IMG/VR virus record: IMGVR_UViG_3300036770_003738
Coordinates: 1 to 64,000 of that record
Strand: one strand, 5' to 3'
Source of the DNA: a virus
DNA length: 64,000 nt
Shown here: piece by piece, positions 5,370-64,000 of the stretch
How positions within the stretch are numbered: position 1 is the first letter of the stretch
Layout: the number at the start of each line of letters is the position of its first letter
Program-made: the position numbers and the translations under genes
Notes under the pieces: model-generated
Seen by the model: only the letters and a program-made list of their open reading frames with translations
The model's database searches: none
Told to the model about the DNA's origin: nothing

Positions 5370-6290
5370 ATGACTTTAGCAACCAAACCTGCACCACGTG
5401 TAAACTATCTCAACAACAGAGATATTCTTAAAGAAATACATCTGAGCAAAAATACCTACTGCTGGTATCGTGATCGTGATCAAGATCATCAATATGATTT
5501 GATCTTACCGTCAGTGGACAAAATCAATCAGCGCACTATTGTAGAAGCACGTAAAAATCGTGCAGATCGTATCAAACGCGAAACAGGCGAAGTGATTGAT
5601 CAGAAAAAAATCCCTAACACAGATCTTGTGTTTCGTATCACTTGCTGGGACCATATTCCTATGGCGCCCAAAAAAATCACCAAGGCTGAAGCTAAGAAAC
5701 GCCGGCTTGAAGATATTTTGGACCTTGAGGATGTTACTGAAGATGATCCGCTAGCAGACTTAATCGAAGAGCCTGTATTAGATATGAACCATGTAAGGCT
5801 AAACTTCCCCCCGTTTGAACACTATCGAATCGACGACGAAAAACAACCGTTTATGGTGGGTCGCAGTCACTGGAAAGGCGACTTGGCTACAGGCGAGTTT
5901 TCCAGAGACCACGGCACAATGACTCGAAAACTAGCCATGATGTTTATGAAACTGTGCGAAAGATATGCCACAAGAAGCAACTGGCGTGGGTACACCTACA
6001 ACGAAGAAATGCGTGGACAAGCTCTACTACAGCTTAGTCAGATTGGTCTACAATTCGACGAGAGTAAGAGCCAAAACCCGTTTGCGTATTACACTGCTGC
6101 AATCACTAACAGCTTTACGCGGATTCTTAACATAGAAAAGAAAAATCAAAACATTCGAGATGACATTTTGGAGATCAACGGGCTCAATCCAAGTTGGACT
6201 CGGCAAAACTCCGGGAGCAAAAGCATGGCAGCCATGTCCGGTCCGGTTGTTAGCAGCCTCAACGATGTAGTACAATCACTAGATGAGTAA
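5370..6290 (+). CDS. 55: gp55-like late-transcription sigma factor
   Basis: Encodes 306 aa. The C-terminal half (residues ~185-260) carries the gp55 signature: CERYATRSNWRGYTYNEEMR, then a helix ending LSQIGLQFDESKSQNPFAYY, then ITNSFTRILNIEKKNQNIRD. This is the sigma region-2-like segment that recognises the T4 late -10 element TATAAATA together with core polymerase and the sliding clamp. T4 gp55 is about 185 aa; here an extra ~120 residues precede the sigma core, including an acidic/basic linker (LEDILDLEDVTEDDPLADLI) and an FPPFEHYRIDDEKQPF segment. The start is fixed by AGGAG 12 bases upstream. It overlaps gp47 by 8 bases. The many TAAATA late promoters in the window are its expected targets. 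Confidence 0.85.
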   Translation: MTLATKPAPRVNYLNNRDILKEIHLSKNTYCWYRDRDQDHQYDLILPSVDKINQRTIVEARKNRADRIKRETGEVIDQKKIPNTDLVFRITCWDHIPMAPKKITKAEAKKRRLEDILDLEDVTEDDPLADLIEEPVLDMNHVRLNFPPFEHYRIDDEKQPFMVGRSHWKGDLATGEFSRDHGTMTRKLAMMFMKLCERYATRSNWRGYTYNEEMRGQALLQLSQIGLQFDESKSQNPFAYYTAAITNSFTRILNIEKKNQNIRDDILEINGLNPSWTRQNSGSKSMAAMSGPVVSSLNDVVQSLDE

Positions 6291-17324: not shown

Positions 17325-17332
17325 GGTAAATA
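17325..17332 (+). promoter_or_regulatory. late promoter GGTAAATA before portal gene
   Basis: GGTAAATA ends 7 bases before the portal ATG; no Shine-Dalgarno fits in between, so a very short or absent leader is predicted from this promoter. Confidence 0.6.
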
Positions 17333-17339
17333 ACTCACT

Positions 17340-19112
17340 ATGGCAGAACAACAAGGTTGGAAAAAGTATTTCAAGGTGGCGGACACGTCTGGCCAGCTGA
17401 GTCCTATTTCGGGACGAAATCAGTTTGGGTTAGCAGGCTATCCCAAAAACGATGGCAACAATGCAGCAGTGCAAGCAGACTTTGTGTTTCGCAACTATGC
17501 AAGTCGTCTGCCAGAAGTGTATTCAGGACACCCTAATCGTATTGAGCGTTACAACCAATACGAAAACATGGATATGGACTCAGAAATCAATGCTTGCTTG
17601 GACATTATTGCTGAGTTTTCTACACAAACTAACCAGTCAAACGGCACACCGTTTGAAGTGGATTATAAAGACAAGCCCACTGATCACGAAGTGGATATTA
17701 TCCGCAAGCAGTTGCAGCAGTGGGTCAAGCTGAACAAATTAGATCAGCGTATTTTTAAACTGTTCCGTAACTGTATCAAATACGGCGATCAGATCTTTGT
17801 TCGTGACCCAGAAACATTTGAAATGATGTGGGTAGACATGAGCAAACTGGCCCGAGTGATTGTAAACGAATCAGAAGGCAAGCGTCCAGAACAGTATGTG
17901 ATTCGTGACATCAACCCTAACTTTCAAAATCTCAGTGTTGCTGCCAAAACTACAACTGACTACATGACCAACCCTGTGACAGGCAGTATCAGCGGCAATG
18001 CAAACTATACCATGCCCAATGGTGGCACAGGCGGCGGCACCACTAACAGTCGCTTTATGCAAGCCATGAACGAAGTGTGTATTGATGCCAAGCACGTGGT
18101 TCACATGAGTCTAAACGAAGGATTAGACGTGTTTTGGCCTTTTGGTCGTAGTGTGCTGGAACAGATTTTTATGGTGTTCAAGCAGAAACAACTGCTGGAA
18201 GACTCTATCTTGATCTATCGTGTGCAACGTGCTCCGGAGCGAAGAATTTTCAAGATTGACGTAGGCAACATGCCTAGTCACTTGGCCATGGCGTTTGTTG
18301 AGCGTGTGAAAAATGAAATGCATCAGCGTCGAATCCCCACTGTAACAGGTGGCGGACAAAATATGATGGATTCTAGCTACAACCCACTTAGTGTAGGCGA
18401 AGATTACTTTTTCCCACAAGGTCAAGATGGTCGCGGATCAAGTGTTGAAACACTACCTGGCGGCCAGAATCTGGGCGAAATCGACGACTTAAAGTATTTC
18501 AACAACAAAATGGCACGTGGTCTGCGTGTGCCTAGCAGTTATTTGCCCACAGGTCCGGACGATTCGGACCGTGCTACTAGCGACGGCAAAGTAGGAACAG
18601 CTTTAATTCAAGAGTATAGATTCAATCAATACTGCGAGCGACTGCAAGCCTTGATCTGCCAGAAACTAGATGACGAATTCAAGATGTTCTTGAAGTGGCG
18701 CGGATTCAACATTGACTCCAGCTTGTTCAGCTTGAAGTTTAATGCCCCGCAGAACTTTGCTAGCTATCGTCAAAGCGAACTGGACAACACACGTATTCAG
18801 GCTTTCCAGGGACTAGAGCCCTTGCCTTACATGAGCAAGAGATTCTTGCTGTCTCGCTTCTTGGGACTAACCGAAGAAGAGATCAAAGAAAACGAAGAAT
18901 TGTGGCGCGAAGAACGTGATCAACCTGAAATGCAAACACAGTCAGGTCAGGATTTACGTTCAGTTGGTATTACTCCGGGCGGCTTGGAGACTGACATTGC
19001 TGCCGGCGAAGAAATAGCTGGCATGACGCCAGCTGAACCGGGTACACCTGCACCTACTCCGGGCGCCCCGATGCCTGGAGCGCCAGCAGGCGCAGCAGCC
19101 CCAACAGTATAA
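17340..19112 (+). CDS. 20: gp20 portal vertex protein
   Basis: 590 aa, in the usual range for T4-type portals (T4: 524). Recognisable gp20 segments are YASRLPEVYSGHPNRIERYN, MDMDSEINACLDIIAEFSTQ, the LFRNCIKYGDQIFVRDPETF strand-helix, SLNEGLDVFWPFGRSVLEQI and RGLRVPSSYLPTGPDDSDRA. The portal forms the dodecameric DNA gate of the prohead and docks the terminase and neck. The last 60 residues are Gly/Pro/Ala-rich. It is the first gene of the head cassette gp20-core-gp21-gp22-gp23, the same order as in T4. Confidence 0.95.
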   Translation: MAEQQGWKKYFKVADTSGQLSPISGRNQFGLAGYPKNDGNNAAVQADFVFRNYASRLPEVYSGHPNRIERYNQYENMDMDSEINACLDIIAEFSTQTNQSNGTPFEVDYKDKPTDHEVDIIRKQLQQWVKLNKLDQRIFKLFRNCIKYGDQIFVRDPETFEMMWVDMSKLARVIVNESEGKRPEQYVIRDINPNFQNLSVAAKTTTDYMTNPVTGSISGNANYTMPNGGTGGGTTNSRFMQAMNEVCIDAKHVVHMSLNEGLDVFWPFGRSVLEQIFMVFKQKQLLEDSILIYRVQRAPERRIFKIDVGNMPSHLAMAFVERVKNEMHQRRIPTVTGGGQNMMDSSYNPLSVGEDYFFPQGQDGRGSSVETLPGGQNLGEIDDLKYFNNKMARGLRVPSSYLPTGPDDSDRATSDGKVGTALIQEYRFNQYCERLQALICQKLDDEFKMFLKWRGFNIDSSLFSLKFNAPQNFASYRQSELDNTRIQAFQGLEPLPYMSKRFLLSRFLGLTEEEIKENEELWREERDQPEMQTQSGQDLRSVGITPGGLETDIAAGEEIAGMTPAEPGTPAPTPGAPMPGAPAGAAAPTV

Positions 19113-19115
19113 ATA
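19108..19115 (+). promoter_or_regulatory. late promoter, perfect TATAAATA, overlapping gp20 stop
   Basis: TATAAATA contains the TAA stop of the portal gene and ends 5 bases before the next ATG (19121). With the usual T4 late start about six bases after the box, transcription would begin at or next to the ATG. Confidence 0.65.
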
Positions 19116-19120
19116 CCTGT

Positions 19121-19339
19121 ATGATACTACAAGAATTTTGGTCAAAAGAACCTGAAGCATATCAGGATTTGTCGCAAGACAACAGCCAACCTCAGCTGGG
19201 TGACCTACGCAAAACTCATTTGACTTTGCGCCAGCTCAATAAGCTGAGAAAAATGAACGACATTCGAGCAGTTGAATACAAAGAAAAACTTAAGCTGGTG
19301 CGGCAGCAATACGCTCCACCTCCAGCGCCAGTGGTCTGA
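19121..19339 (+). CDS. small head-cassette protein between portal and core genes
   Basis: 72 aa, basic and helical (DLRKTHLTLRQLNKLRKMND ... YKEKLKLVRQQYAPPPAPVV). It occupies the place of the small prohead-core genes (67/68) of T4. The proline-rich tail and L-R-x-L-N-K-L-R helix are of the type seen in small proteins following gp20 in aquatic T4-like phages. Function unknown; an assembly role is likely by position. No Shine-Dalgarno is present; the ATG lies 5 bases after a perfect late promoter. Confidence 0.65.
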   Translation: MILQEFWSKEPEAYQDLSQDNSQPQLGDLRKTHLTLRQLNKLRKMNDIRAVEYKEKLKLVRQQYAPPPAPVV

Positions 19340-19394: not shown

Positions 19395-19402
19395 TGTAAA
19401 TA
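19395..19402 (+). promoter_or_regulatory. late promoter TGTAAATA
   Basis: TGTAAATA lies 30 bases before the ATG of the acidic core protein, with TAGGAG as ribosome-binding site in the leader. Confidence 0.6.
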
Positions 19403-19432: not shown

Positions 19433-20251
19433 ATGAATAGATTTGAACAATTGATCGAATACGTGATCAATGATGAAGAACAAAAAGCTCGTGAGCTTTT
19501 CCATGACATCGTAGTGGCCAAAAGCCGTGAAATCTACGAAAGCATGATGGACGAATCCGCTGAAGAAGAGTTGGACGAATCCGCTGAAGAAGAGTTGGAC
19601 GAAGGCGACATGGGCGGTGACGCTCAGAACGACCTAATCGACGACGTTGAAATGGACGAAGAAAGCGAACTCAGCATGGAAGCTGAGGAAGATGCTGAAA
19701 TCGGCGATGAAGAAGTTGAAGTTAGCAGCGACGAAGAGTTTGGTGGCGATGAAGCTGGTAGCGATGAAGCTGCGACCAAAGACGACATCATGAATCTTGA
19801 AGACAAGCTAGACCAGTTGATGGCCGAGTTTGAAGACATGATGGGCGGCGGTGCAGGCGACGACATGGGCAACGGCGATGATTTTGGTGCTGACGAAGGT
19901 GGCGATGCTATCGAAGTTGACGATACAGAAGAAATGATCCCAATGGCCGAAGCTCTAAGTCTAAAAGCTGCTCCAAAACCAGTTACTAGCGAAGAAGGCG
20001 GTGTAAACAAGAAGTCTACTGTTGCTGCTAACGCAGGAGCACGTGGTGCATTGGCCAAGCCAGTTCATACCGGCGCTAGCGAAGGTGGCCATCATGACTC
20101 TGCAGCTTATCGCAACACAACAAAAGAAGTTGGCGTAACTCCAACTCAAGACGCAGGCAAAGGCGCATTTAAAACTGCTGCCCCAAAACCAGTTACTAGC
20201 CAAGCTAGCGGCGTTAACAACAAGAGCCCATTGCCAGGCGGCAGAGGTTAA
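19433..20251 (+). CDS. acidic prohead core protein (gp67/gp68-like position)
   Basis: 272 aa. The N-terminal 40 residues are helical (MNRFEQLIEYVINDEEQKAR ELFHDIV). Residues ~42-170 are extremely rich in Asp/Glu with Gly and Met, and the C-terminus is a flexible Ala/Thr/Lys segment in which APKPVTS occurs twice. High acidity, position between gp20 and gp21, and the lack of a folded domain suggest an internal core/scaffold protein removed by the gp21 protease, like gp67/gp68 of T4. Starts with TAGGAG. A 24-base tandem duplication encodes repeated DESAEEEL. Confidence 0.65.
   Translation: MNRFEQLIEYVINDEEQKARELFHDIVVAKSREIYESMMDESAEEELDESAEEELDEGDMGGDAQNDLIDDVEMDEESELSMEAEEDAEIGDEEVEVSSDEEFGGDEAGSDEAATKDDIMNLEDKLDQLMAEFEDMMGGGAGDDMGNGDDFGADEGGDAIEVDDTEEMIPMAEALSLKAAPKPVTSEEGGVNKKSTVAANAGARGALAKPVHTGASEGGHHDSAAYRNTTKEVGVTPTQDAGKGAFKTAAPKPVTSQASGVNNKSPLPGGRG
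19550..19597 (+). repeat. 24-base tandem duplication in the acidic core gene
   Basis: GACGAATCCGCTGAAGAAGA plus GTTG occurs twice back to back with no mismatch (19550-19573, 19574-19597), followed by the first 6 bases of a third copy. It adds one DESAEEEL unit in frame. Confidence 0.9.
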
Positions 20252-23264: not shown

Positions 23265-23272
23265 GCTAAGTA
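23265..23272 (+). promoter_or_regulatory. putative variant late promoter GCTAAGTA
   Basis: TAAGTA instead of TAAATA, placed just after the gp23 terminator and 5 bases before the ATG at 23278; there is no Shine-Dalgarno. The same variant and spacing recur at 48396. Confidence 0.45.
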
Positions 23273-23277
23273 TTTTA

Positions 23278-24210
23278 ATGATAGAATTTTTAGATCCTAG
23301 TCGCTTTTATACTAACAGACAGTATCTGACACAGTGGTTTTCTGAAGATACATTGTGTATTACAGATAACGATTTTGAAAACATAGAGCACACAAAAACT
23401 CTGTTGAACAAACACGCTAACCCCAATCGCATACTTGACATCACACACAATCCGTGGGTAGATAGCAGAGTGCCATTGTCTATTACACCGGTGTTGACTA
23501 ACAACTATGAGTTCTTTTATCGGCCACAATCTGGGGTCCGTTTCTTTCCGCTATTCTTGTGGATGTACAGTTTGAGAAATTCCTTGTGGTGGAACACATT
23601 TTGCTTTGATCAATCTGCTGACAAAACACAAGGCCTCATGTGTTTGAACAACAGACCAAGACCACACAGAACTCAAGTATGGGCAGAGTTCAATCGCCGA
23701 GGTATCATTGATCAGTGTATATTCAGTTTTACTGAACCAGAGCATCATGAAAAAGATCAGTACTCATATCCTTATCCTTTGAATATTACTGGTGAACATT
23801 TTGATCCCACTAGAAACGACATAGGTGTCGGACACTCAGTTTATAGAGATTGTGCTGTGAACTTGACGACAGAAACAGCAACAGACTTGGCCTACATCAG
23901 TGAAAAAACCTGCAAGACATTTGTGGCCAGACAAATCCCTGTGTTGATTGGCAGTGCGGGAATCAACCAGTTCTTGTCTGATATAGGGCTTGACATGTTT
24001 TCTGATCTTGTGCCTTGGACCACTTGGGACAACGAAACTGATGATCGTGTTCGAGTGCTGAAGATTGTGGATTTTGTGGAGTCATGGTTGCGTTCAGGGA
24101 CCATGCTAGCAGACTATCGCCGTGTACTGCCCAGGGTGGAAGCTAACAAACGCTACTTTCACAGCGAAGCATTTAGAAATCGCATCATGACGCAGATGGA
24201 TTCAATCTAA
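23278..24210 (+). CDS. glycosyltransferase-like protein (fucosyltransferase/GT10-type C-terminal motif)
   Basis: 310 aa. The C-terminal half contains LAYISEKTCKTFVARQIPVL followed by a Gly and a short F-L-S-D-I-G-L-D-M-F segment. This resembles the conserved donor-binding part of alpha-1,3-fucosyltransferases (S-E-K-x-x-x ... P-V-x-G ... G). The N-terminal half is divergent. A distant relative is encoded at 49307 (TFSEKTFRSLVTPSPW). Substrate unknown: it could glycosylate virion proteins or host surface glycans. Preceded by its own putative late promoter after the gp23 terminator, so it is an insertion in the late region. The codons look more A+T-rich than in gp23. Confidence 0.6.
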   Translation: MIEFLDPSRFYTNRQYLTQWFSEDTLCITDNDFENIEHTKTLLNKHANPNRILDITHNPWVDSRVPLSITPVLTNNYEFFYRPQSGVRFFPLFLWMYSLRNSLWWNTFCFDQSADKTQGLMCLNNRPRPHRTQVWAEFNRRGIIDQCIFSFTEPEHHEKDQYSYPYPLNITGEHFDPTRNDIGVGHSVYRDCAVNLTTETATDLAYISEKTCKTFVARQIPVLIGSAGINQFLSDIGLDMFSDLVPWTTWDNETDDRVRVLKIVDFVESWLRSGTMLADYRRVLPRVEANKRYFHSEAFRNRIMTQMDSI

Positions 24211-24329: not shown

Positions 24330-25478
24330 TTATACCTTGTACCACGAGAGATATTGGGTGATTTTTTCAGTCACACTTGTCCAGTCTCCTCTAACAGGTT
24401 GTCTGAACAATCGTGCGCTCACATACCAAGGGCTAGAATCCCGACCCAACAACCAGCGCCAGTCTGTAGCATAGGCATTGAGCATGAGCCAAGCAGGACG
24501 GCCTAGCGCACCTGCGAGATGCGTAATAGCAGTGTCCACGCTGATCACCACATCTAGGTTCATCATGAGTGCAGCAGTGTCAGCAAAGCTTTGCACAGCA
24601 CCAGGATAACGACTTACACCGGCGTCAGCTAGTGCTTGTTCTTCTTCAGGCTCGGCATCTATTTGTAGGTTGATCCACTCGTATTGCGGATTCTTCCGGA
24701 TCATGTCTAGCATGGTTTTAAAAGGCACACTCTTGTGTTGATTCAACCATGAATCACGACGCCCGCTCCAGCTAAAGCCTACACGCATGCGAGTTTTTGG
24801 GCCTAGCTTTTGTTGCCATACCCGTACTTGATTAGCATCTGCGTTCAAATAGCTTTGTACCTGAGGCAAGTTTTCTACGGTAACACCTAGTATGCCCGGG
24901 ATGCTCATAATAGGAACCCAGGTATCAAACTCCCCAGGATCGTCTAAGTAAGTGCCAGTCCAGGCAATTATATCACTACGTCCTAGCAACGGTACTAGCC
25001 CGTCTGTGACTTGTAGTTTGATACGAGCACCCATCTGATGCAAGTTGTAGATGAATCTTGAAAACTGAATGTTGTCTCCATGACCTTGTTCACCTACAAC
25101 CAAGATTGTTTGGCCTTGCAAGCTTTCTCCGCGCCAACGAGGTTGCGAGTGCCGAGGTTCAGTACCAGCTAAGTGTTCGTACTCCCAACGAGTTTCGTAA
25201 GCTGGCCACCCTTGTTTGTAATCTCCTAACAACAAATGACACACAGCTAGATTGAAACGTGCAGTGATGTTTTTTGGATCTAGTACAGCAGCATGTTGCA
25301 AAAACGGAACGGCTCTGTTTGGATAGCCTAGTTCGCGCATGACATTGCCGTAGTTGTTGAATGCTGCAGCCGAATCGGGATCTTGCACAAATGCCATTGC
25401 ATAGCATTGCAGTGCCTTTTCGGGTTGTTGTGCAGCACGAAGCTGATTGCCTTGTTCGATTAGTTCGTTGGAATTCAT
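24330..25478 (-). CDS. TPR protein with glycosyltransferase (GT9/GT41-like) domain
   Basis: 382 aa from ATG 25478. Residues ~1-110 hold three tetratricopeptide-like repeats (e.g. AAFNNYGNVMRELGYPNRAV, ITARFNLAVCHLLLGDYKQG). From ~120 a Rossmann-type transferase follows: GQTILVVGEQGHGDNIQFSR near 123 and the C-terminal sugar-nucleotide site DVVISVDTAITHLAGALGRP near 310, as in ADP-heptose-type and O-GlcNAc-transferase-like enzymes of bacteria. It probably adds a sugar to a protein or glycan. An upstream ATG (25538) is rejected because a late-promoter sequence CTTAAATA ends 4 bases before 25478. Convergent with the fucosyltransferase-like gene. Confidence 0.75.
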   Translation of the reverse strand: MNSNELIEQGNQLRAAQQPEKALQCYAMAFVQDPDSAAAFNNYGNVMRELGYPNRAVPFLQHAAVLDPKNITARFNLAVCHLLLGDYKQGWPAYETRWEYEHLAGTEPRHSQPRWRGESLQGQTILVVGEQGHGDNIQFSRFIYNLHQMGARIKLQVTDGLVPLLGRSDIIAWTGTYLDDPGEFDTWVPIMSIPGILGVTVENLPQVQSYLNADANQVRVWQQKLGPKTRMRVGFSWSGRRDSWLNQHKSVPFKTMLDMIRKNPQYEWINLQIDAEPEEEQALADAGVSRYPGAVQSFADTAALMMNLDVVISVDTAITHLAGALGRPAWLMLNAYATDWRWLLGRDSSPWYVSARLFRQPVRGDWTSVTEKITQYLSWYKV

Positions 25479-25482
25479 CAAG

Positions 25483-25490
25483 TATTTAAG
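25483..25490 (-). promoter_or_regulatory. late promoter CTTAAATA, 4 bases before ATG
   Basis: On the minus strand CTTAAATA-CTTG-ATG. No Shine-Dalgarno. Same geometry as at 53257, 59269 and 63426. Confidence 0.6.
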
Positions 25491-25615: not shown

Positions 25616-26320
25616 ATGGGTCGTCCTCTAAAAATCAAAAAATCTACTACCAGTGACATTGGTTTCAATCCGTTTAGCGCATTAACTAACCCGGTGTATC
25701 CATCTGATCCTACTGTGTTCGATGGTACAGAATATCTTGGCGTGGTTGGCGGTGCAAATGCCAACGTAGCGTCTGCTGCGTATCCAGTGGTCAAGTGTCG
25801 TGCTTTTATCACCGGTACAGGGGCAGAAGATGATGCTTACATCATTACACAAAAAGGTACTATTAAGTATCAAGTGGCTACAGTGACCGCAGTGGCTGAC
25901 GAAGATCTTGTAGCAGGCCAAGCTTATCGAATTTTAACAGTAGGCACAACCGACTGGGTAGCGTGTGGTGCAAGCGATTCCAACGCTGCAATCGGTGATA
26001 TCTTTACTGCAACAGCAGCAGGTTCAGGCACAGGTACTGCTCAAGCAGTCGGCACATGCATTTTGGCCAATGAAGCTGATTCTGCACTAACCGAAGGCAA
26101 CATGAACATTACTTTCAGCACTGGCGACAGTACTGCTCAGTTGATCAGCCGTCTGACCAACAAGTTTGCACTAGACTACAGCACACCGCCAGTTCGCTAT
26201 GCTGTAAACTTCTTCAGTGACGAAGGTTACGAAATCAAGAGCGGAACCACTGGTGCAACCAACGTTTCGGGACAGCAAAACCAAGTCAGCTTGGCGATTG
26301 TAGAGAACTTTACATCGTAA
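25616..26320 (+). CDS. small virion/tail structural protein (234 aa)
   Basis: Starts MGRPLKIKKST after AAGGAA. The middle (DLVAGQAYRILTVGTTDWVA ... GDIFTATAAGSGTGTAQ) is a common beta-rich insert of phage structural proteins, of the kind found in fibres and decoration proteins. The C-terminal half includes VRYAVNFFSDEGYEIKSGTT. No enzymatic motif. Being just upstream of the fibre genes and having its own late promoter and terminator, it is likely a separately expressed virion component. Exact role unknown. Confidence 0.6.
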   Translation: MGRPLKIKKSTTSDIGFNPFSALTNPVYPSDPTVFDGTEYLGVVGGANANVASAAYPVVKCRAFITGTGAEDDAYIITQKGTIKYQVATVTAVADEDLVAGQAYRILTVGTTDWVACGASDSNAAIGDIFTATAAGSGTGTAQAVGTCILANEADSALTEGNMNITFSTGDSTAQLISRLTNKFALDYSTPPVRYAVNFFSDEGYEIKSGTTGATNVSGQQNQVSLAIVENFTS

Positions 26321-45861: not shown

Positions 45862-47184
45862 TTAACCGCCGTTGTCGGCTCTGGGTTTAAGCAACTCACT
45901 GAGACTCTGACGACTTGGAATGGCGCCGCGGTCTGTGGTGTTGACAGTTGCTGTGTTGTTGACAAAGCTAGAACGCAGTGTCTTGTTGTCTGGACCGTTG
46001 TTAAGATCAGTCCGAACACTGTCTTCAATCTTGACCCAACGAACACCGTCATATCGGAACAAACGATTGGGTCTATAATCCAGTCGCAACACATATTGAC
46101 CAGCTACAGGATTGGGAGGAAAAGCCACTCCTTGAGTAACCGGAAGACCGTTAGGAGCAATCTCGTCGCTGCCAGTGAGATAGCCCATGGTATAACCTTC
46201 GGCACGTGGGGTAGTACCTTGTCCACCTTGGGTACCGTCTACAGTAGTTGAACTATCTGTGGTCATACCTACTTCTTCAGCTAGTGCAGGCTGATCGTTT
46301 AGCAGAGTTGGAACAATATAAAACTTAGTGGTGTCGTAGCCACTGAGAGGAACTTCGATGTCTGCTTGTGTGAGAATAGCGTCGTTGATTTCGGTGTCTT
46401 TGGTTCTAGTACCTTGAACATCAGCAACAGTAGGCGGTGTGTACTCTTGCCAATATGTTGTATTAGAAATATCAATGTCGGCCGGAGTATTGATCTGAGC
46501 TTGATAATAGGTATCGCCGTAGTTTACAATACTTCCAGCAGGGTAATAATTGCCATTGTCCCAGATTTGCTCACTGACAAAAGGTTTGTTAGTAATAGAG
46601 TTGTATTCCTGTGCGTCAGTGAGAGGCGTTGCCTTCACACGCCATAAGTGAGGTAACCAAGTTACAGAAAAGCCTTCGCTAGCATAAGCAGCATCTTGTA
46701 TCACATAGTACTTAGGCAGTGCAGCAGGCAGTGTTGAATTTAATGGGTTGTAGTCTTTGAGATTTGGAACTTCGATCACGTCACCACTCATGAGCTTCCG
46801 TCCAAAAGTGTCAATCATGTCGTTGTAGTGGAAGGTGATAAACAAAGTATCATTGTTCAAAAACAAACCAAACTGTGTCAAGTCAAAGTCCACGTCTTGA
46901 GTATTGTAAACCCCCCGCATGACGTAAATGTCAGGATCGTACACTCGGTCTCTGTTTTCTAGCAACAGCAGATCTTGAATGTTGAGTGGGCTCAGTGTTT
47001 CGTAAACTGGTTGAGTTGCGTCAGCATTGCCACTAAGTGCAGAATCTTCCCCTCCGGTTTGCGGACCCATGTACTTGTGGACATAAAGGTCTAAACCGCC
47101 AACAGTGTACATTTCACTGATTGTGCGGTCCAAAAATTGATAATCTCTGGTGCGATTGGGACGATATAGACTTAAACGTGGCAT
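45862..47184 (-). CDS. 14: gp14 neck protein
   Basis: 440 aa from ATG 47184; the open frame extends further upstream but the segment before MPRLSLYRPNRTRDYQFLDR is outside the promoter and is not protein-like. gp14 features: the N-terminal helix with EMYTVGG, YVMRGVYNTQDVDFDLTQFG LFLNND, then SGDVIEVPNLKDYNPLN and KYYVIQDAAYASEGFSVTWL PHLWRVK. T4 gp14 is 256 aa, so an extra C-terminal half is present. With gp13 it forms the neck between portal and tail. A late promoter CATAAATA ends 8 bases upstream, with no Shine-Dalgarno. Confidence 0.8.
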   Translation of the reverse strand: MPRLSLYRPNRTRDYQFLDRTISEMYTVGGLDLYVHKYMGPQTGGEDSALSGNADATQPVYETLSPLNIQDLLLLENRDRVYDPDIYVMRGVYNTQDVDFDLTQFGLFLNNDTLFITFHYNDMIDTFGRKLMSGDVIEVPNLKDYNPLNSTLPAALPKYYVIQDAAYASEGFSVTWLPHLWRVKATPLTDAQEYNSITNKPFVSEQIWDNGNYYPAGSIVNYGDTYYQAQINTPADIDISNTTYWQEYTPPTVADVQGTRTKDTEINDAILTQADIEVPLSGYDTTKFYIVPTLLNDQPALAEEVGMTTDSSTTVDGTQGGQGTTPRAEGYTMGYLTGSDEIAPNGLPVTQGVAFPPNPVAGQYVLRLDYRPNRLFRYDGVRWVKIEDSVRTDLNNGPDNKTLRSSFVNNTATVNTTDRGAIPSRQSLSELLKPRADNGG

Positions 47185-47192
47185 AGTAATAC

Positions 47193-47200
47193 TATTTATG
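47193..47200 (-). promoter_or_regulatory. late promoter CATAAATA for gp14-gp15
   Basis: Minus-strand CATAAATA, 8 bases before the gp14 ATG. It is back to back with a sigma70 promoter whose -35 box starts 6 bases away on the other side. Confidence 0.65.
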
Positions 47201-47260: not shown

Positions 47261-48400
47261 ATGGTTGCTGTAGCAAAAAGTATTAAACCTTTGAATCCCC
47301 GTAGTCCTGACACCAAATACGTTGGGGACGAACCCCTGTGGCGCAGCCAACCCACAGAAAACCGTTTTGCTGAACTTACACGAGCATTTAACTGGTACAA
47401 CTACTTCTATGGCAAAAAAGAAGCCAAAGACTTTGTAGTTGCTTATCTTGAAACTCAAAACAAGGCCAAAGAAGCCAAACAAATTCGCAGTCTTAGCGAT
47501 AGTCAAATGCGTCTAACTACAGGTTGGTTGTGCCGTATGACCCTTATGGGACTGCAACTTGACGAGCACGAGCAAATCAAACTGGATAACTTGATTGCCG
47601 ATCTGCTGTCTATCAAAGCAGAAGCAAAAAAAGAAGCAGAAACCGCAGAAGACACTCAACCCAAAGTTACGATCCAGGATCGCCTGCGTGAAAAAGTAAG
47701 CGAGTGCGCCGGGGAGCTGGACGGTTTGTTTGATGACTTTGTGGTCGCTGGCGCCAAAATGTCTGCAGACTGGAAGCCTATTGCTACTATCCGCGGTATG
47801 AACGTAGCACCACAAATGGTGTCTACTATTGCTAGTATCTGGCAACAAAAACTTGACGAGTTTACAGCCGTACAAGAAGGCAAGGATGCCCAATTGGTCG
47901 AAGCATACAGCAACTACAACAAGATTCAACTGCGTAACATCATCAAGTTTTGCGAGCAAGTTATTGCAGACTGCGGTTCTTACGTGCAGATTAAAAAGGT
48001 TGAACGCAAGCCACGCAAAGTCAAGGCAGTGCCGCCGGAGAAAAAGGCTGCTAAGTTTAAGATTTGTGCTGAATTTGCTGAACTCAAACTCAAGAGTCTC
48101 CCGGCTGCACAACTAGTGGACAAGAGCGAAGCCTGGTTGTATGACACCAAAAAGCGCAAGTTGATCCACGTGGTAGCCGACGAGTATGCCAAGGTGTTTA
48201 CGGTTAAAAACAATGCCGTGATCGGGTTTAGCACCGTGGAAACACAGCAAAAGACTCTGCGCAAGCCAGCAGAGCAACTTAAACCCATACTAACAGCAGG
48301 CAAGCCAGCAGCACGTAAAGCCTACAAGGACATCAAGGCCACTGAAACTGCCTGGAACGGGCGCGGCAGTGAGAACCTTGTGGTCATCAGAGCTTGGTAA
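47261..48400 (+). CDS. unrecognised early-expressed protein (379 aa)
   Basis: No family recognised. Charged, Lys/Glu-rich and largely helical. FAELTRAFNWYNYFYGKKEA KDFV near residue 37, LSDSQMRLTTGWLCRMTLMG near 78, a helical middle with IRGMNVAPQMVSTIASIWQQ, then a basic region VERKPRKVKAVPPEKKAAKF, and a C-terminal beta/helix part ending KATETAWNGRGSENLVVIRA W. The basic linker would suit nucleic-acid binding, but this is a guess. A strong sigma70 promoter and AAGGAG imply high early expression, unlike its late neighbours. It lies between neck genes in opposite orientation and a radical SAM gene. Confidence 0.6.
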   Translation: MVAVAKSIKPLNPRSPDTKYVGDEPLWRSQPTENRFAELTRAFNWYNYFYGKKEAKDFVVAYLETQNKAKEAKQIRSLSDSQMRLTTGWLCRMTLMGLQLDEHEQIKLDNLIADLLSIKAEAKKEAETAEDTQPKVTIQDRLREKVSECAGELDGLFDDFVVAGAKMSADWKPIATIRGMNVAPQMVSTIASIWQQKLDEFTAVQEGKDAQLVEAYSNYNKIQLRNIIKFCEQVIADCGSYVQIKKVERKPRKVKAVPPEKKAAKFKICAEFAELKLKSLPAAQLVDKSEAWLYDTKKRKLIHVVADEYAKVFTVKNNAVIGFSTVETQQKTLRKPAEQLKPILTAGKPAARKAYKDIKATETAWNGRGSENLVVIRAW

Positions 48401-48403
48401 GTA
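48396..48403 (+). promoter_or_regulatory. putative variant late promoter GGTAAGTA
   Basis: GGTAAGTA-ACTG-ATG: same geometry as the late promoters with 4-base spacing, but TAAGTA. It overlaps the stop of the 379-aa gene. Confidence 0.4.
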
Positions 48404-48407
48404 ACTG

Positions 48408-49307
48408 ATGCATGAGATTACAAACAAAGTTGATTTTTATATTACTAATGTTTGTAATCTCACCTGCGAAGGGTGCAACAGGTTCAACAATCACGATTTT
48501 CGAGGATGGCAACGCTGGAGTGATTATCGAGCACAGTACGAACAATGGGGTGAGTTGGTTCGATTAAAATCTGCAACTATCATGGGAGGCGAGCCTTTTT
48601 TGAATCCGACATTAGTGGATTGGATACAAGGAATCAATCGTATATTCGGCATTGACGTTCAAGTTCTCACTAACGGTACTAGGTTCAGACAGTCACAGCA
48701 CTTGTACGATGCAATGTTGTATCGTTCAACACGCACAAGAGCAATGAACCACATTGGAGTAAGTCTTCATAATCTTGCAGATCAAGAAGAAATACTTGAT
48801 AGTATTCGATCATTCTTTCCTGGCTCATTTAATGAGTACCCTAAAGGACATCTAGCAAACCGTTGGGGGTCAGACTGGTATTTTGTTGACAATAACGGAG
48901 TAATGGTCAATGTGTATGTTGTTAACAAATTTGTTAATTCGTCGGTGATCCCACAATGGCAAGTCAACGGCGGAATTAAAAAACAATACACACTACATAA
49001 TAGCGATCCAGTAGAGGCGCACCAGGCTTGCGCTTTTGCAAAATTTAAATCATATCATTTCATTCGTGGAAAATTGTACAAATGCGGTCCAGTAGCTCTC
49101 TTGCCCGAGTTTGATCAACAACATCAGCTTACAATAACTGATGCTGATAGAAATTTAATGAGTTCATATCAACCATTGTCAACTGACAACTTTGATCATT
49201 ACCACAAAGAATTTTTTGATCACATAGATAAGCCTATTTCACAATGTAAATTTTGCCCTACTGAGCCTAAATTCAGAATAATTGCACCGATTCGCAAAGG
49301 GCTGTAA
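48408..49307 (+). CDS. radical SAM protein with C-terminal cysteine cluster
   Basis: 299 aa. The CX3CX2C motif CNLTCEGC (C16, C20, C23) ligates the [4Fe-4S] cluster that cleaves S-adenosylmethionine. MGGEPFLNPTL near residue 60 is the GGEP motif that binds the SAM amino group. The C-terminal part has further Cys (QACAFAKF, LYKCGPV, QCKFCPTEP), a SPASM/twitch-like auxiliary-cluster arrangement typical of enzymes that modify peptides, such as sactipeptide and epimerase maturases. The substrate is unknown. Its stop overlaps the following glycosyltransferase-like gene (TAATG), so the two are probably a functional pair. No Shine-Dalgarno. Confidence 0.85.
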   Translation: MHEITNKVDFYITNVCNLTCEGCNRFNNHDFRGWQRWSDYRAQYEQWGELVRLKSATIMGGEPFLNPTLVDWIQGINRIFGIDVQVLTNGTRFRQSQHLYDAMLYRSTRTRAMNHIGVSLHNLADQEEILDSIRSFFPGSFNEYPKGHLANRWGSDWYFVDNNGVMVNVYVVNKFVNSSVIPQWQVNGGIKKQYTLHNSDPVEAHQACAFAKFKSYHFIRGKLYKCGPVALLPEFDQQHQLTITDADRNLMSSYQPLSTDNFDHYHKEFFDHIDKPISQCKFCPTEPKFRIIAPIRKGL

Positions 49308-52424: not shown

Positions 52425-52990
52425 CCTTACCAAAACTGCTTATTATTGGCAATGCTCGTCACGGCAAAGACACAGTATGCGACATTCTCAAACAAGAATT
52501 TGGCTACAACTTTAGATCTAGCTCAGACTTTTGTGCTGAAAAGTTTATCTATGCAGCGCTCAAAGATCGGTATGGCTATGCCACTTATGAGCAGTGTTTT
52601 GAGGACAGACACAATCACCGCGCTGAATGGTATGACATGATTCATGATTACTGCCGAGATGACTATGCTAGATTGGGACGAGAAATCTTTGCCGAAAATG
52701 AAATCTATTGTGGCCTGCGCAACAAATCAGAGTTCCATGCCATGAAGAACACAGGTGTTTTTGATCATGCTATTTGGGTAGATCGTAGTGATCACTTGCC
52801 TCAAGAAGACAAGAGCAGCATGAGCCTAGAAATTTGGATGGCCGACTATGTGATTGACAACAACGGAACGCTAGCTGATTTGCAACGCAACACTAGAGAG
52901 CTGGTTACACGTCTGGTTGCAAATCACCAGGCCGCCATACAGAATCAGACTTTGATAAATCGACTTCGCAGTTACGGCACACAGTTTTGA
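52421..52990 (+). CDS. P-loop nucleotide kinase (dNMP kinase-like)
   Basis: 189 aa. Walker A GNARHGKDT (residues ~10-18), with Asp-Thr after the Lys as in phage deoxynucleoside monophosphate kinases (T4 gp1) and dephospho-CoA kinase. FDHAIWVDRSDHL is the strand before the lid, and YVIDNNGTLADLQRNTREL is the typical C-terminal segment of this group. It would raise dNTP precursors for phage DNA. Coupled to the exonuclease by ATGA, forming a small early nucleotide-metabolism operon inside the late region. Its last 86 bases overlap the opposite zinc-ribbon gene. Confidence 0.75.
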   Translation: MTLPKLLIIGNARHGKDTVCDILKQEFGYNFRSSSDFCAEKFIYAALKDRYGYATYEQCFEDRHNHRAEWYDMIHDYCRDDYARLGREIFAENEIYCGLRNKSEFHAMKNTGVFDHAIWVDRSDHLPQEDKSSMSLEIWMADYVIDNNGTLADLQRNTRELVTRLVANHQAAIQNQTLINRLRSYGTQF

Positions 52991-53252
52991 GATTTTTAGA
53001 CTCGCAATGAGCTAGATTTCCGTCTGCATGATACACCAGCATCTGTGCTGAATAGCGGGCCCTGAACCCGCAGCGATCACAGATCATCTTCTTTTTGTAC
53101 CCAGCTGATTCCCAGCTGGGTTTTCTTTTGGGCAGTTTTTTTGCCTTGCGAATACAGTTTTCACATCTGCTACGATAGTGTACCACATCATCACGGCGAT
53201 AGTTTACAGCACAAGGACGTTGGTTACATACAGGACAAGTGGGTCTATTCAT
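52905..53252 (-). CDS. zinc-ribbon protein, possibly HNH-related
   Basis: 115 aa from ATG 53252. Two metal sites: CPVCNQRPC ... CENC and MICDRCGFRARY ... VYHADGN ... C-x8-C-R-N-C. SKSDSVWRPGDLQPDV is a C-terminal motif ('W-R-x-G-D-L') that I recall from small zinc-finger proteins of T4-like phages, so the overlapped C-terminus is judged genuine. Possibly a nucleic-acid-binding or HNH-derived protein; no clear HNH catalytic His-Asn pair is visible. An upstream ATG (53345) is rejected because a late promoter AATAAATA ends 4 bases before 53252. The 3' end overlaps the kinase gene by 86 bases. Confidence 0.65.
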   Translation of the reverse strand: MNRPTCPVCNQRPCAVNYRRDDVVHYRSRCENCIRKAKKLPKRKPSWESAGYKKKMICDRCGFRARYSAQMLVYHADGNLAHCESKNLKTVCRNCEVDLSKSDSVWRPGDLQPDV

Positions 53253-53256
53253 GGGG

Positions 53257-53264
53257 TATTTATT
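53257..53264 (-). promoter_or_regulatory. late promoter AATAAATA, 4 bases before ATG
   Basis: Minus strand AATAAATA-CCCC-ATG. No Shine-Dalgarno. Divergent from the gp18 promoter at 53314. Confidence 0.6.
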
Positions 53265-53313: not shown

Positions 53314-53321
53314 CATAAATA
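53314..53321 (+). promoter_or_regulatory. late promoter CATAAATA before tail sheath gene
   Basis: 27 bases before the ATG at 53349, with AAAGGAAACC as ribosome-binding site in the leader. Confidence 0.7.
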
Positions 53322-53348: not shown

Positions 53349-56300
53349 ATGGCTCTAATCTCTCCAGGCGTAGAAGTAACAGTAATTGATGAAAGTCAAT
53401 ACATCCCTTCGGCAGTCAACACAGTACCTTACTTTGTTATTGCAACAGCACAAAACAAAGTTTCTAGCGACGGTATAACCGTTGCTGCAGGCACTACTGC
53501 TGCAAACGCCAACAAAACTTATCTCATCACCAGTCAACGTGAACTGGCAGCTACTTATGGCGTGCCATTCTTCTACAATACCACAACTGGTACACCAATC
53601 AACGGTTACGAACTCAACGAATATGGTTTGCTTGCTGCTTACTCAGCTTTGGGTGTTACCAATCGTGCTTATGTACAACGTGTTGACATTGATCTTACTG
53701 AGCTTACAGCCAGTTTGACTCGCCCTGTTGGTGCTGCTGCTGACGGTACCTACTGGTTAGACACTGCAAACAGCACTTGGGGCATATTTGAATGGAACCA
53801 AACTACCGCAGCTTTTACTGCCGTAACTCCAATTGTGGTCACTAGCACAGCTGACGTCGAAGATGCAGTTGGCGGCGATTATACACCATTGAGCACCATT
53901 GGTAATATTGGTGACTATGCAGTGGTGCCAATCAGCAACTTTGTTACCGGTTACTACAAAAACAGTTCCAACGTTTGGGTACAGGTAGGTTCAGAAGCCT
54001 GGCAAACAGCTTGGCCGACCCTAACCGGTACAAACGCCCCATCTAGTTTAACAGCTGGCAACAACATGTACATCAACGGTAACTTGGTTACTGTGGGCGC
54101 TACTAACACAGTGGCTGGTTTTGCTGCTGTGATCAACGCAGCATCTATCGCTGGTGTTACTGCTGCTGCTGTGTCAGGCAAGCTGACCATTTATGCTGAC
54201 GCTAATGCTACCAATGACGGTTCTACTGCTACCAACGGTGTTGTGTCTATTGAACCTGGTCCAAGTTCAGGTTCAGCATTGCTCACAGCATTGGGTATCA
54301 CTGCTGATGAATATCTAGCCCCGGTATACTTCCCTGGCTACAGCTACCAAAGCCCACGTTGGAGAAGCACAGACACTTCACCACGTCCTACAGGCAGTGT
54401 ATGGAACAACGTCAGTGCCGCCAACAATGGCCTGAGCTTGTCACTGAAAAAGTACAGTACAGCGTTAGGCTTGTGGGTAGCACAGTCTGTTCCTGCTTTT
54501 GCTAATGATGCTTATGCGTTCGGTACACTTGATCCCACAGGCGGCGGCAAAAACATCCCTGTAGGAACAACTTATGTTCAATATGATGCTCAACAGTATC
54601 TAACAGACCCAAATAGCTCGTTTGACTTCTTGATTCTTGAGCGTACAACTTTGGGTCAAGCAATTTATACAGGTACAACTACACCAACAGGCACAGCTTT
54701 TGGTGTTGGTAACAGTTTCTCACTGTCTGCTACTACACAAAACAACCCGCAGCCGCTAAACACAGCAACTGTGACTATTGGCGGCACAGGTACTGTGAGT
54801 GATTTTATTGCTGCTGTAAGCGCAGCTAATGTTCCACACGTTACTGCTAGTGTTAATTCAGCTGGTAATATTGTGTTGACTCATGCGCTAGGTGGATCTA
54901 TCACTGTGAGTAACACCAGTGGGACCCCACTAACTGTAGCTGGATTTACGCTAAGTACACCAAACGGTCGCGAATCTAGTACAGTTGCTAACACCATTGT
55001 GTTTAGTAACTTTGCCACCGATCCTGAATTCACATATACTGCTAGCGATACCGAACCTGATCAAGACCCAGCAGATGGCCGCTTGTGGTTCTACAGCACC
55101 GTTAGCGATGTGGATATCATGATCCAGGACAACGGTACCTGGCAAGGATATCAAAACGTGGCCAATGACGTTCGCGGCTTCGACTTGACATTAACCAATG
55201 CATCAGGACCTATTGTTGCTGCTACCGCTCCAACTACACAAAACGATGCCAATGAAAGTCCTCTGCAATACGGCGACTTGTGGATCGACAGTTCAGATCT
55301 TGAAAACTACCCTAAGATCTATCGTTGGGAACCTGTAAGTGGAGTAGATCAGTGGGTAGCCATTGACACCACAGATCAAGTGACAGACAACGGTGTGTTG
55401 TTTGCTGATGCTCGTTGGGCACCAAACGGTACTACAGATCCTGTAGCAGATGCTTTCCCAACTATCGAAAGTTTGTTGGTTAGTAACTATACTGATCTAG
55501 ATGCTCCGGACTCCACACTATACCCACAAGGTATGTTGTTGTGGAACACACGTCGTTCAGGCTACAACGTCAAGAGCTTCCAAAGCAACTACTTTAATTC
55601 AACTACATTCCCGGATGACACATTGCCTACCGTGACCAGCACCTGGCTCACGGCCAGCGGTAACAAAACTGACGGAAGCATGTATTCTGGCCGCCAAGCA
55701 CAGCGCAAGATGGTTGTAGCTGCAATGAAAGCAGGTATTGATACTAGCACAGCAGCACGTGAAGAACAAAATCAGTTTAATATTATTGCTAGCCCTGCTT
55801 ATCCAGAACTGACTCCAAACATGATTGCACTCAGTAACGAGCGCAACAATACATTGTTTGTGGTAGCAGATACACCAATGCGTCTTGGTGCAACTGGTAC
55901 TGAACTTGTAGCCTGGGCAACCAACAACAACGGCGAAGGTCTACCAACAGAAGATGGTAACTCGGCAACTAGCAACTATGCTGGTGCTTTCTACCCCAGC
56001 TGTTTGACCACAGACCTAGGCGGCAACACAGTTGTTGCTCCTCCAAGTCACATGATGGTACGCACTATCTTGCGCAGCGATGCTGTAAGCTATCCATGGT
56101 TAGCACCTGCTGGTACACGTCGTGGTGTAGTTGACAATGCTACTGCGATCGGTTACATTGATGCAGCTACAGGTGAGTTCCAACAGATTGGTGTAAGCCA
56201 AGGTGTTCGTGATATTCTTTATGAACGCAATATTAACCCAATCACATTCATCCCCGGGGTTGGTATCACTAACTTTGGTAACAAGACCACAACTACAACT

Positions 56301-56670: not shown

Positions 56671-56678
56671 GGTAAATA
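56671..56678 (+). promoter_or_regulatory. late promoter GGTAAATA before tail tube gene
   Basis: 19 bases before the ATG, with ATAGGAG as ribosome-binding site. Separate initiation for the abundant tube protein. Confidence 0.65.
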
Positions 56679-56697
56679 AACACATAGGAGATAACAA

Positions 56698-57321
56698 ATG
56701 GCAGTTTCATCATTACAACGCATGACAGTTCCATTGGCGAGCGATCAAAGTTCGTCAACACAGGGCTTGTTGATGCCCAAACTCAAATATCGCTTTAGAG
56801 TGATGTTTGAAAACTTTGGTGTGTCAAAACCCACCACTGAATTGACCAAACAGGTTATGAGCTTTAGTCGCCCCAACCTGAGCTTTGAGGAAATCACTTT
56901 GCCTATCTACAACTCAACTTTGAAGTTGGCAGGCAAGCACACATGGGCAGATGCCACATGCGAAATTCGTGATGATGCAGGCGGCTCAGTGAGCAAGTTG
57001 ATTGGCGAACAGTTACAGAAGCAAATGGACTTCTTAGAAATGGCTTCGGCAGCTTCGGGTATTGACTACAAGTTTACTACTGTGGTAGAAGTACTCGACG
57101 GTGGCAACGGTGCATCAACACCAGTGGTTCTTGAAACATGGAATCTGTACGGATGCTACTTGAAGTCAGCTGACTACGGCGCACTCAACTACGGTGAAAG
57201 CGCACCTGTTACAGTAAACATGACTATTGCTTATGATAACGCCAACCAAGGCGAAGGTCAAGGCGTTGGTACATTGGTTGGTAGAACTATTGGCGACGTG
57301 GTAACTGGCGCTGGAGCTTAA
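56698..57321 (+). CDS. 19: gp19 tail tube protein
   Basis: 207 aa; T4 gp19 is 163. LKYRFRVMFENFGVSKPTTE L-T-K-Q-V, then FEEITLPIYNSTLKLAGKHT WADATCEIRDDAGGSVSKLI GEQLQKQMDF and ETWNLYGCYLKSADYGALNY are the tube-protein beta sandwich with the central helix. It polymerises into the inner tube that passes DNA. Order sheath-tube-gp54-like matches the T4 tail module. TAGGAG upstream. Confidence 0.93.
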   Translation: MAVSSLQRMTVPLASDQSSSTQGLLMPKLKYRFRVMFENFGVSKPTTELTKQVMSFSRPNLSFEEITLPIYNSTLKLAGKHTWADATCEIRDDAGGSVSKLIGEQLQKQMDFLEMASAASGIDYKFTTVVEVLDGGNGASTPVVLETWNLYGCYLKSADYGALNYGESAPVTVNMTIAYDNANQGEGQGVGTLVGRTIGDVVTGAGA

Positions 57322-59268: not shown

Positions 59269-59276
59269 ACTAAATA
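59269..59276 (+). promoter_or_regulatory. late promoter ACTAAATA, 4 bases before ATG
   Basis: ACTAAATA-TGGC-ATG. No Shine-Dalgarno between the box and the gp16 ATG. Confidence 0.6.
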
Positions 59277-59280
59277 TGGC

Positions 59281-59781
59281 ATGACACGCAAACTCGAAGA
59301 GCTTTTTGACCTCCCTCCAACCACAGAAGAAGTAGACGCTTCCTTACCTGAACTACCTGCCAATCGTGAAACTCTTGCAGCACTAGACGCTGCTATAGAC
59401 AAGATTGACGAAGCGCTGCCTGCTGTTCGTGGCCTGGAATCAACCGACACCGAAATGGATGAACTGGCGGGACTAGCAACTGGCAGCTACAAAGATCTCA
59501 TGGATCTGGGCATGCAGGTTGACAGTCGTTTTGCTAGTGAAATCTTTTCAGTAGCATCAAACATGCTGGGCCATGCTATCACAGCAAAAACCGCCAAACT
59601 GGACAAAAAACTCAAGATGATTGATCTACAGTTGAAGAAAATGCGCCTGGATCAAACAGCCAAACCCGAAGGCGAAGACGGCACAGGCCCCATGCAAACA
59701 GCACAAGGCGTGGTTTTAAGCCGCAACGATTTGTTGGATAGAATCGTGGGTCGTAAAGATCAAAACGATCAAAAAGAATAA
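59281..59781 (+). CDS. 16: gp16 small terminase subunit
   Basis: 166 aa, as T4 gp16 (164). RKLEELFDLPPTTEEVD at the N-terminus, a middle helical pair (IDKIDEALPAVRGLESTDTE MDELAGLATGSYKDLMDLGM) and a C-terminal helix NMLGHAITAKTAKLDKKLKM IDLQLKKMRLD are typical of small terminases of T4-like phages. Its ring regulates the large terminase during headful packaging. The gp17 gene is not in the window; it may lie beyond the right end. The ATG follows the late promoter by four bases. Confidence 0.82.
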   Translation: MTRKLEELFDLPPTTEEVDASLPELPANRETLAALDAAIDKIDEALPAVRGLESTDTEMDELAGLATGSYKDLMDLGMQVDSRFASEIFSVASNMLGHAITAKTAKLDKKLKMIDLQLKKMRLDQTAKPEGEDGTGPMQTAQGVVLSRNDLLDRIVGRKDQNDQKE

Positions 59782-63425: not shown

Positions 63426-63433
63426 CGTAAATA
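63426..63433 (+). promoter_or_regulatory. late promoter CGTAAATA inside a small palindrome
   Basis: CCCGT-AAAT-ACGGG (63424-63437) contains CGTAAATA; the ATG follows immediately at 63438, 4 bases after the box. No Shine-Dalgarno. Confidence 0.6.
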
Positions 63434-63437
63434 CGGG

Positions 63438-64000
63438 ATGAGCAATTTTTATTGTGCGGCCCCTTGGCGCGGTCTGCATATCAATCCCCAAGGAAGTATT
63501 AAGACTTGCTGTGCTGGCAATCCGCACATGCTTGGAAACCTCAACGACCTTGATATCGAACAAGCACTTAACAGCGAAAAAGCACAAGAAATACGTGCAA
63601 GCTTGTCTCAAGGTAAACCGCACGAGTATTGTAGTAATTGTGTTAAGGCTGAGAGGTTTGGCGCCGAAAGCGAACGTCACTGGCACAACAGAGTAAATCC
63701 TGACTTTGACCGTGCTTCAGCTGGCTCCGATTATCATTATCCTGTAATTGTGGATGTGCGATGGAACACCACATGCAATCTCAGTTGTAATTACTGTGAC
63801 CCAGCCAACAGCTCAAAATGGGCAAGTCTAAGACATATACCTTTTAAAAGTCAGAGCCGCCCATATTATGAACAAGTGTGTGACTTCCTAGAGCAACATA
63901 ACAATCACATACACGAAGTTGCACTAGTTGGTGGCGAACCATTGTTGTTACCTGAAAATGAACGACTGCTAGATGTTATACCTAATGATTGTATTGTGAC
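63438..64000 (+). CDS. radical SAM protein with N-terminal auxiliary cysteine domain (cut by window edge)
   Basis: 187 residues visible; the frame is open to the right end. The N-terminal domain (FYCAAPWRGLHINPQGSIKT CCAG, C6/C24/C25, then EYCSNCVKAERFGAES with C65/C68) is a SPASM/twitch-like cluster domain placed before the core. CNLSCNYC (C113, C117, C120) is the CX3CX2C SAM-cluster motif and VALVGGEPLLLP the GGEP motif. Enzymes of this layout modify peptides or other large substrates. The 48408 protein is a different, shorter architecture. The start is fixed by the late promoter directly upstream. Confidence 0.85.
   Translation, partial: MSNFYCAAPWRGLHINPQGSIKTCCAGNPHMLGNLNDLDIEQALNSEKAQEIRASLSQGKPHEYCSNCVKAERFGAESERHWHNRVNPDFDRASAGSDYHYPVIVDVRWNTTCNLSCNYCDPANSSKWASLRHIPFKSQSRPYYEQVCDFLEQHNNHIHEVALVGGEPLLLPENERLLDVIPNDCIV

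Follow-up and report, generated by a model that had tools for sequence, protein, structure and literature searches.

Leaderless mRNAs occur in bacteria and archaea, and lambda cI is an example of a single phage gene with such an mRNA; leaderless translation has usually been studied in bacteria or in single phage genes of this kind. In enterobacteria such mRNAs are rare, in some other bacteria they are common, and an excess of fMet-tRNA favours them (PMC9031893). The late boxes of phage T4 are 8 bp long, with the first base, A(-13)/T(-13), about one helical turn before the transcription start (PMC2988020), so that the box spans -13 to -6 and +1 is approximately the 6th base after it. An ATAAATA late box has been reported for the jumbo phages CBB and GAP32 (PMC5259590), and the 5′ UTRs of AR9, another jumbo phage, are 26-491 nt long (PMC5312081). 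No account of a leaderless class among the late genes of T4-type phages turned up in the literature searched, which left out most subscription journals.

The window, which is the whole stretch of 64,000 nt analysed here, is the first 64 kb of the 84,592-bp IMG/VR record IMGVR_UViG_3300036770_003738. The record contains markers of a T4-superfamily jumbo phage, namely a T4 gp20-like portal, a gp23 capsid, gp55, and a T4-type sheath and tube, and its capsid protein shares 62-67% identity with those of the jumbo phages 121Q, GAP32, PA5oct, Vibrio 2.275.O and Phosso. A host search via bS21 gave weak matches only. A box resembling the T4 late box, in the -10 position and with the core TAAATA or TAAGTA and two loose leading bases, is found upstream of virion and other genes. 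Spacing is defined as the number of bases between the end of the late box and the ATG, and genes with a spacing of 4-8 constitute the short class. Judged from the sequence and its relatives, the late genes very probably follow two architectures, the second of which would yield leaderless or 3-nt-leader mRNAs from a T4-type box. The relevant features of the window are as follows.

5370-6290, + strand: gp55-like sigma factor for late transcription (phrog_12791, E=2e-76)
17327-17332, + strand: late box TAAATA, 7 nt before the portal (gp20) ATG at 17340; predicted 3-nt leader ACT
19108-19115, + strand: late box TATAAATA, with TAAATA at 19110-19115, 5 nt before the ATG at 19121
19121-19339, + strand: 72-aa gene (phrog_13986), predicted leaderless
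23267-23272, + strand: variant box TAAGTA, 5 nt before the ATG at 23278, immediately 3′ of a terminator-like hairpin and T run
23278-24210, + strand: 310-aa gene, function not assigned, predicted leaderless
25483-25488, - strand: late box TAAATA, 4 nt before the ATG at 25478, divergent from the + strand gene at 25616
24330-25478, - strand: TPR and glycosyltransferase family 9 gene, predicted leaderless
47193-47198, - strand: late box TAAATA, 8 nt before the ATG at 47184; leader ACT
45862-47184, - strand: virion structural protein (phrog_11591), predicted 0- or 3-nt leader
48398-48403, + strand: variant box TAAGTA, 4 nt before the ATG at 48408
48408-49307, + strand: radical SAM gene, predicted leaderless
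53257-53262, - strand: late box TAAATA, 4 nt before the ATG at 53252, divergent from the sheath gene with its own box at 53316
52905-53252, - strand: 115-aa HNH-nuclease-like gene, predicted leaderless
59271-59276, + strand: late box TAAATA, 4 nt before the ATG at 59281
59281-59781, + strand: 166-aa gene (phrog_16202) 3′ of head closure, predicted leaderless
63428-63433, + strand: late box TAAATA, 4 nt before the ATG at 63438
63438-64000, + strand: SPASM/radical SAM gene, continuing to 64580 of the record, predicted leaderless
53316-53321, + strand: late box for contrast, 27 nt before the tail sheath ATG at 53349, with a Shine-Dalgarno (SD) sequence
56673-56678, + strand: late box for contrast, 19 nt before the tail tube ATG at 56698, with SD
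19397-19402, + strand: late box for contrast, 30 nt before a virion-protein ATG at 19433, with SD

When all TAAATA and TAAGTA boxes of the record are listed, they fall into two classes, one with a spacing of 4-8 nt and no SD and the other with a spacing of at least 17 nt and mostly with SD, and the gap between them is nearly empty. There are 12 short and 13 long boxed genes (12/25 short). The initial annotation had placed TAAATA 4 or 5 bases upstream of the ATGs at 19121, 25478 (-), 53252 (-), 59281 and 63438, and TAAGTA with the same geometry at 23267-23272/23278 and 48398-48403/48408; all of these positions are exact, and SD is indeed absent at all seven. It understated the class, as the record holds five more short-class genes, at 17340 (portal, spacing 7), 47184 (-, spacing 8), 68611 (spacing 7), 75272 (spacing 5) and 80073 (-, spacing 6), the last three of them outside the window and 68611 encoding a virion protein. 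A division into short-spacing cargo or regulatory genes and leadered virion genes was also proposed; it holds for capsid, sheath and tube, the virion proteins of highest abundance, which have SD leaders, but breaks down at the portal, 47184 (-) and 68611. Two product names given there need to be replaced or dropped: the protein called a zinc ribbon at 53252 resembles phage HNH nucleases, and PHROGs and Pfam offer no support for gp16 at 59281.

The TAA at 19110-19112 in the late box is also the stop codon of the portal gene, and the TAA at 48398-48400 in the TAAGTA box that of the preceding gene. Three radical SAM genes are located in the late region (48408-49307 and 63438-64000 of the window, and 65098-66258 of the record). 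The short-class gene at 75272-76036 of the record (L003:12272-13036) predicts a cytidylyltransferase-like domain fused to a mannose-6-phosphate isomerase/cupin domain.

TAAATA is depleted in the window, with 25 occurrences against 39 expected, and 100/100 shuffles reach 25; this looks like selection against the box away from promoters. TAAATA-N4-ATG occurs 4 times in the window against 0.71 expected (0/100 shuffles reach 4), and TAAATA-N5-ATG by itself is not enriched there (1 against 0.87 expected). In the whole 84.6-kb record, TAAATA is found no more than 44 nt upstream of 20 genes, of which 6 have it at 4-5, 10 at 4-8 and none at 9-14. The excess at spacing 4-5 over control hexamers, from which ATAAAT was excluded in the final test because it overlaps the box, has P values of about 8e-4 in the record and 8e-11 and 1e-5 in two long contigs of relatives, G001 (331,654 bp) and G003 (212,614 bp). 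This is a statistical excess, and chance can account for single sites. It is the comparison with relatives that settles the question of chance.

The sample of relatives consists of 160 loci (1.85 Mb) around portal and sheath relatives, and in this set, in which many genes are orthologues of each other, TAAATA lies at spacing 4 in 80 cases, 5 in 87, 6 in 3, 7 in 75 and 8 in 2, with none at 0-3, 10 at 9-14 and 253 at 15-44. Non-overlapping control hexamers of the same composition show no such peak in the 160 loci, and TAAATA-N10-11-ATG, used as a spacing control, occurs in the same records without excess over the reversed pattern. TAAATA precedes the ATG by 4-8 in 33 of the 70 boxed genes of G001 and 23 of the 55 of G003, almost none lie at 9-14, and the remaining boxed genes have long leaders, mostly with SD. 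Spacing 6 is rare in the late-region loci and found 4 times in each of the whole contigs, and a strict ban on 1-2-nt leaders is therefore not claimed. The count of TAAATA-N4-5-ATG across the genome and its relatives, suggested in the initial annotation, thus left its claim standing, with strong enrichment in the relatives.

After clustering, gene families in the 160 loci are almost purely short or purely long, and over the record, G001 and G003 together 36 families are short only, 54 long only and 6 mixed. Orthologues were also collected starting from the proteins, with no box required, and counted as distinct upstream sequences. The box is at 4, 5 or 7 in 57/57 portal orthologues, at 5-8 in 64/64 orthologues of 19121, at 4-5 in 51/54 of 53252 (-), at 4, 5 or 7 in 31/31 of 59281, at 4-7 in 24/25 of 47184 (-), at 4-5 in 12/12 of 25478 (-) and at 5-6 in 5/5 of 23278. 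In the SD families (19433, sheath, tube, 50399 and 59802), the box is mostly at 16-33 and SD nearly always present. If the start of an orthologue differs by a few codons, the box is shifted along with the ATG (e.g. L137 for 59281). The box geometry is conserved and specific to each gene. Loss of the box at this spacing in relatives that retain the ATG, named in the initial annotation as the outcome that would speak against it, is not the pattern seen, box and spacing being kept in 51/54 to 64/64 orthologue upstream sequences.

An SD sequence within -20 to -5 is found in 1/76 short-class genes versus 55/90 long ones, and in none of the short-class genes of sister lineages (0/38, 0/16 and 0/12). 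At spacing 4-5, the start codon is ATG in 49 genes and GTG or TTG in 3. The last base before the ATG is a pyrimidine in 98% of genes at spacing 5, and 99% of genes at spacing 7 have an A five bases after the box, a set that is dominated by portal orthologues, with the same A in other families. Most spacing-7 genes, including the portal gene of the window with 17333-17339 between box and ATG, read ACT-ATG, consistent with a 3-nt leader, and some genes with spacing 6 or 8 have this ACT as well. In SD genes, with families weighted equally, the purine preference at the same position is only modest. These preferences at spacings 5 and 7 fit T4-type initiation 5-6 bases after the box; strict T4 spacing, with the start on the 6th base, would fit spacing 5, and spacing 4 would need a one-base shift to reach the A. 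The first 40 nt are less structured than internal sequence in short-class and SD genes alike, and 5′ folding energy was discarded as a mark of the short class for lack of contrast.

No -35 element was detected, the best TTGACA matches at the boxes being equal to those at random positions. PF02916 and phrog_223 gave no gp45 match in four contigs of relatives, these models being silent in controls as well, and the related phage CBB is likewise without recognisable gp33/gp45 (PMC5259590). The box can be regarded as a promoter since it also serves SD genes, at a distance of 15-35 nt. In the proposed mechanism, TAAATA, or its variant TAAGTA, would be a T4-type late promoter core read by host RNA polymerase with the gp55-like sigma factor, and transcription would start at a purine 5 or 6 bases after it. 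In the first late architecture the box would precede an SD site and ATG by 15-35 nt. In the second, a box 4-5 nt upstream would make the A of the AUG the +1 position and the mRNA leaderless, and a box 7-8 nt upstream would leave a leader of 3 nt, often ACU. Both forms of the second architecture would be translated independently of SD at a 5′-terminal AUG, in a 70S- or fMet-tRNA-dependent manner. We infer the exact start site, the translation of leaderless mRNA and the reading of the box by gp55. The leaderless reading of the initial annotation is thereby supported as a strong prediction, not a demonstration, by the absence of SD, the promoter-like box, the encoded gp55 and the fitting initiation geometry; it suits spacing 4-5, but genes at spacing 7 or 8 look like 3-nt leaders and are not strictly leaderless.

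Another reading accepts the boxes as late promoters and has the proteins made mainly from longer upstream transcripts through coupling or reinitiation, with the close promoter incidental or minor. Co-directional upstream neighbours at 53/76 short-class genes would permit this, and in 10 of these 53 the TAA of the box is the neighbour's stop codon, as at 19110 and 48398. It is nonetheless unlikely: the neighbour is divergent at the other 23, including 25478 (-) and 53252 (-), which precludes readthrough or coupling from that neighbour, 23278 sits 3′ of a terminator-like hairpin, and a fixed spacing of 4, 5 or 7 is not predicted. Reinitiation could add to expression where the box overlaps the previous stop codon (19110 and 48398).

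SD-independent starts are known in bacteria, and TAAATA occupies the position of an SD, so that it could be an A/U-rich translation signal on leadered mRNAs and not a promoter. This seems highly improbable given that the same hexamer is 15-35 nt upstream of SD genes with the SD in between, an arrangement that fits only a promoter, that it matches the T4 late box in phages encoding gp55 as well as the box proposed for CBB and GAP32, and that other A/T hexamers produce no peak. A wrongly annotated ATG, with the true start at a downstream codon with SD, is a very remote prospect; a coincidence of box and ATG over a few nt might mislead a gene caller in a single genome, and no tool result favours it. 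Across nine families, no orthologue offers an in-frame start with a 5-nt SD in the 30 codons downstream of the ATG, no possible start codon comes before the ATG in 208/264 orthologues (64/64 for 19121), and the same ATGs are used in the deposited annotation of HTVC008M. Chance in A/T-rich intergenic DNA, for which the unenriched spacing 5 in the 64-kb window could be cited, has negligible probability and is already refuted by the comparative counts, with P values of 1e-5 to 1e-20 in relatives, conservation gene by gene, and absence of the class from more A/T-rich phages such as PA5oct, GAP32 and T4.

With two late architectures as the preferred reading, their distribution among phages can be traced. 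In T4, GAP32, Vibrio 2.275.O and Phosso the portal gene has an SD leader, and that of PA5oct has no box nearby; a Vibrio portal used as a query found no relatives. Environmental portals at least 67% identical to that of the record are near-leaderless except L222, and those below 54% are leadered. The near-leaderless portals form one clade (support 99/99) with one reversal. L222, the sole leadered portal in this clade, has its box 26 nt upstream together with AAGGA, and its next gene keeps spacing 6; its leadered portal is possibly a reversal. Confinement of the leaderless class to the clade of the window was considered and rejected, as the sister lineages G013 and G015 have it and only the portal switch is clade-bound. 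In G013 and G015, whose portals are leadered, and in the deeper lineage G017, 38, 16 and 12 genes elsewhere are short-class and have no SD, and unbiased whole-record counts of the short pattern against the reversed pattern are 41 vs 5, 31 vs 15 and 13 vs 0, respectively.

The class was also detected in two cultured phages. In the whole genome of HTVC008M (Pelagibacter) the pattern count is 16 vs 7 reversed, and 13/36 boxed genes (36%) are short, 10 of them at spacing 5. Among its short-class genes are those for the tape measure, tube cap, DNA-end protector, head closure and a baseplate protein. In this phage, 26 bp separate the DNA-end protector gene (-, ATG 18916) from the head-closure gene (+, ATG 18943), and this interval is taken up by two boxes in opposite orientation, each with a spacing of 5 to its own ATG. 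XacN1 (Xanthomonas) has 12 vs 3 reversed, 2 of the 12 being repeat-end duplicates, and 16/50 short boxed genes (32%), a proportion inflated by the choice of stretches for matches. The short class was not seen in T4, GAP32, PA5oct, Vibrio 2.275.O, 121Q, Syn9, S-PM2, P-SSM2, KVP40, phiM9 or Phosso, on the basis of gene-by-gene inspection of late regions only or, for P-SSM2, KVP40, phiM9 and 121Q, of the pattern count only.

Genes for bS21 were found in relatives (G001 85226-85381, G002 211357-211512 and G003 111101-111259); leadered relatives have them too, as do PA5oct, Vibrio 2.275.O and Phosso. A published study of bS21-encoding phages with 331-kb genomes concerns different, A/T-rich Bacteroidetes phages and makes no link to leaderless genes (PMC9723584). 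G001 also carries an initiator-like tRNA-Met(CAT) at 222236-222310 (L181:2236-2310) within a 24-tRNA island, with a C1xA72 mismatch, a CGCGGGG acceptor and 2/3 of the initiator G:C anticodon-stem pairs; similar sequences are present in G004, G013 and G015. Neither bS21 nor this tRNA marks the trait, because both occur in relatives with a leadered portal, and they were set aside as its cause, bS21 being found moreover in isolates without the short class. Host tolerance alone was likewise set aside, the Sinorhizobium phages phiM9 and Phosso being without the class.

It is possible, though doubtful, that several T4-superfamily lineages run a two-channel late programme from the same gp55 promoter, the bulk virion proteins being made from SD-leadered mRNAs and the remaining products from leaderless ones, and that the state of the ribosome (initiator tRNA, bS21, free 70S) could tune the channels separately during infection. 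If the two-architecture reading is correct, a third to half of boxed late genes in freshwater jumbo phages and a cultured pelagiphage would share a regular and conserved leaderless architecture, gained or lost at traceable points such as the portal switch in one clade. Promoter position alone could then set late-gene output, and phage gene finders trained on SD may misplace starts. HTVC008M and XacN1 were isolated on known hosts, so the prediction is open to test in culture.

The T4 late promoters (gp55/gp33/gp45, TATAAATA) resemble those described here in the core box, the lack of a -35 element, the gp55-like sigma factor and SD genes with the box 17-35 nt upstream. However, T4 boxes lie well upstream with an SD leader, and 0/15 boxed genes of its late region are at 4-8, whereas about half are 4-8 nt from the ATG here; the core here often lacks the leading TA, reading TAAATA, or is TAAGTA, and gp45 is not recognised. 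The Rak2-like jumbo phages (CBB, GAP32, 121Q and PA5oct) have a related capsid, portal, gp55 and gene order, but the short-spacing class is absent from GAP32, 121Q and PA5oct. HTVC008M (147 kb) and XacN1 (385 kb), cultured members of the T4 superfamily, share the enrichment of TAAATA-N5-ATG, mostly without SD, and are distant from the phage of the record. With the leaderless mRNAs of bacteria, archaea and lambda cI, the genes described here share a predicted 5′-terminal AUG, the absence of SD and a preference for AUG over GUG or UUG; they differ in that leaderlessness is predicted as a regular second architecture, in which one class of late promoter would serve dozens of lytic-phage genes, virion genes included.
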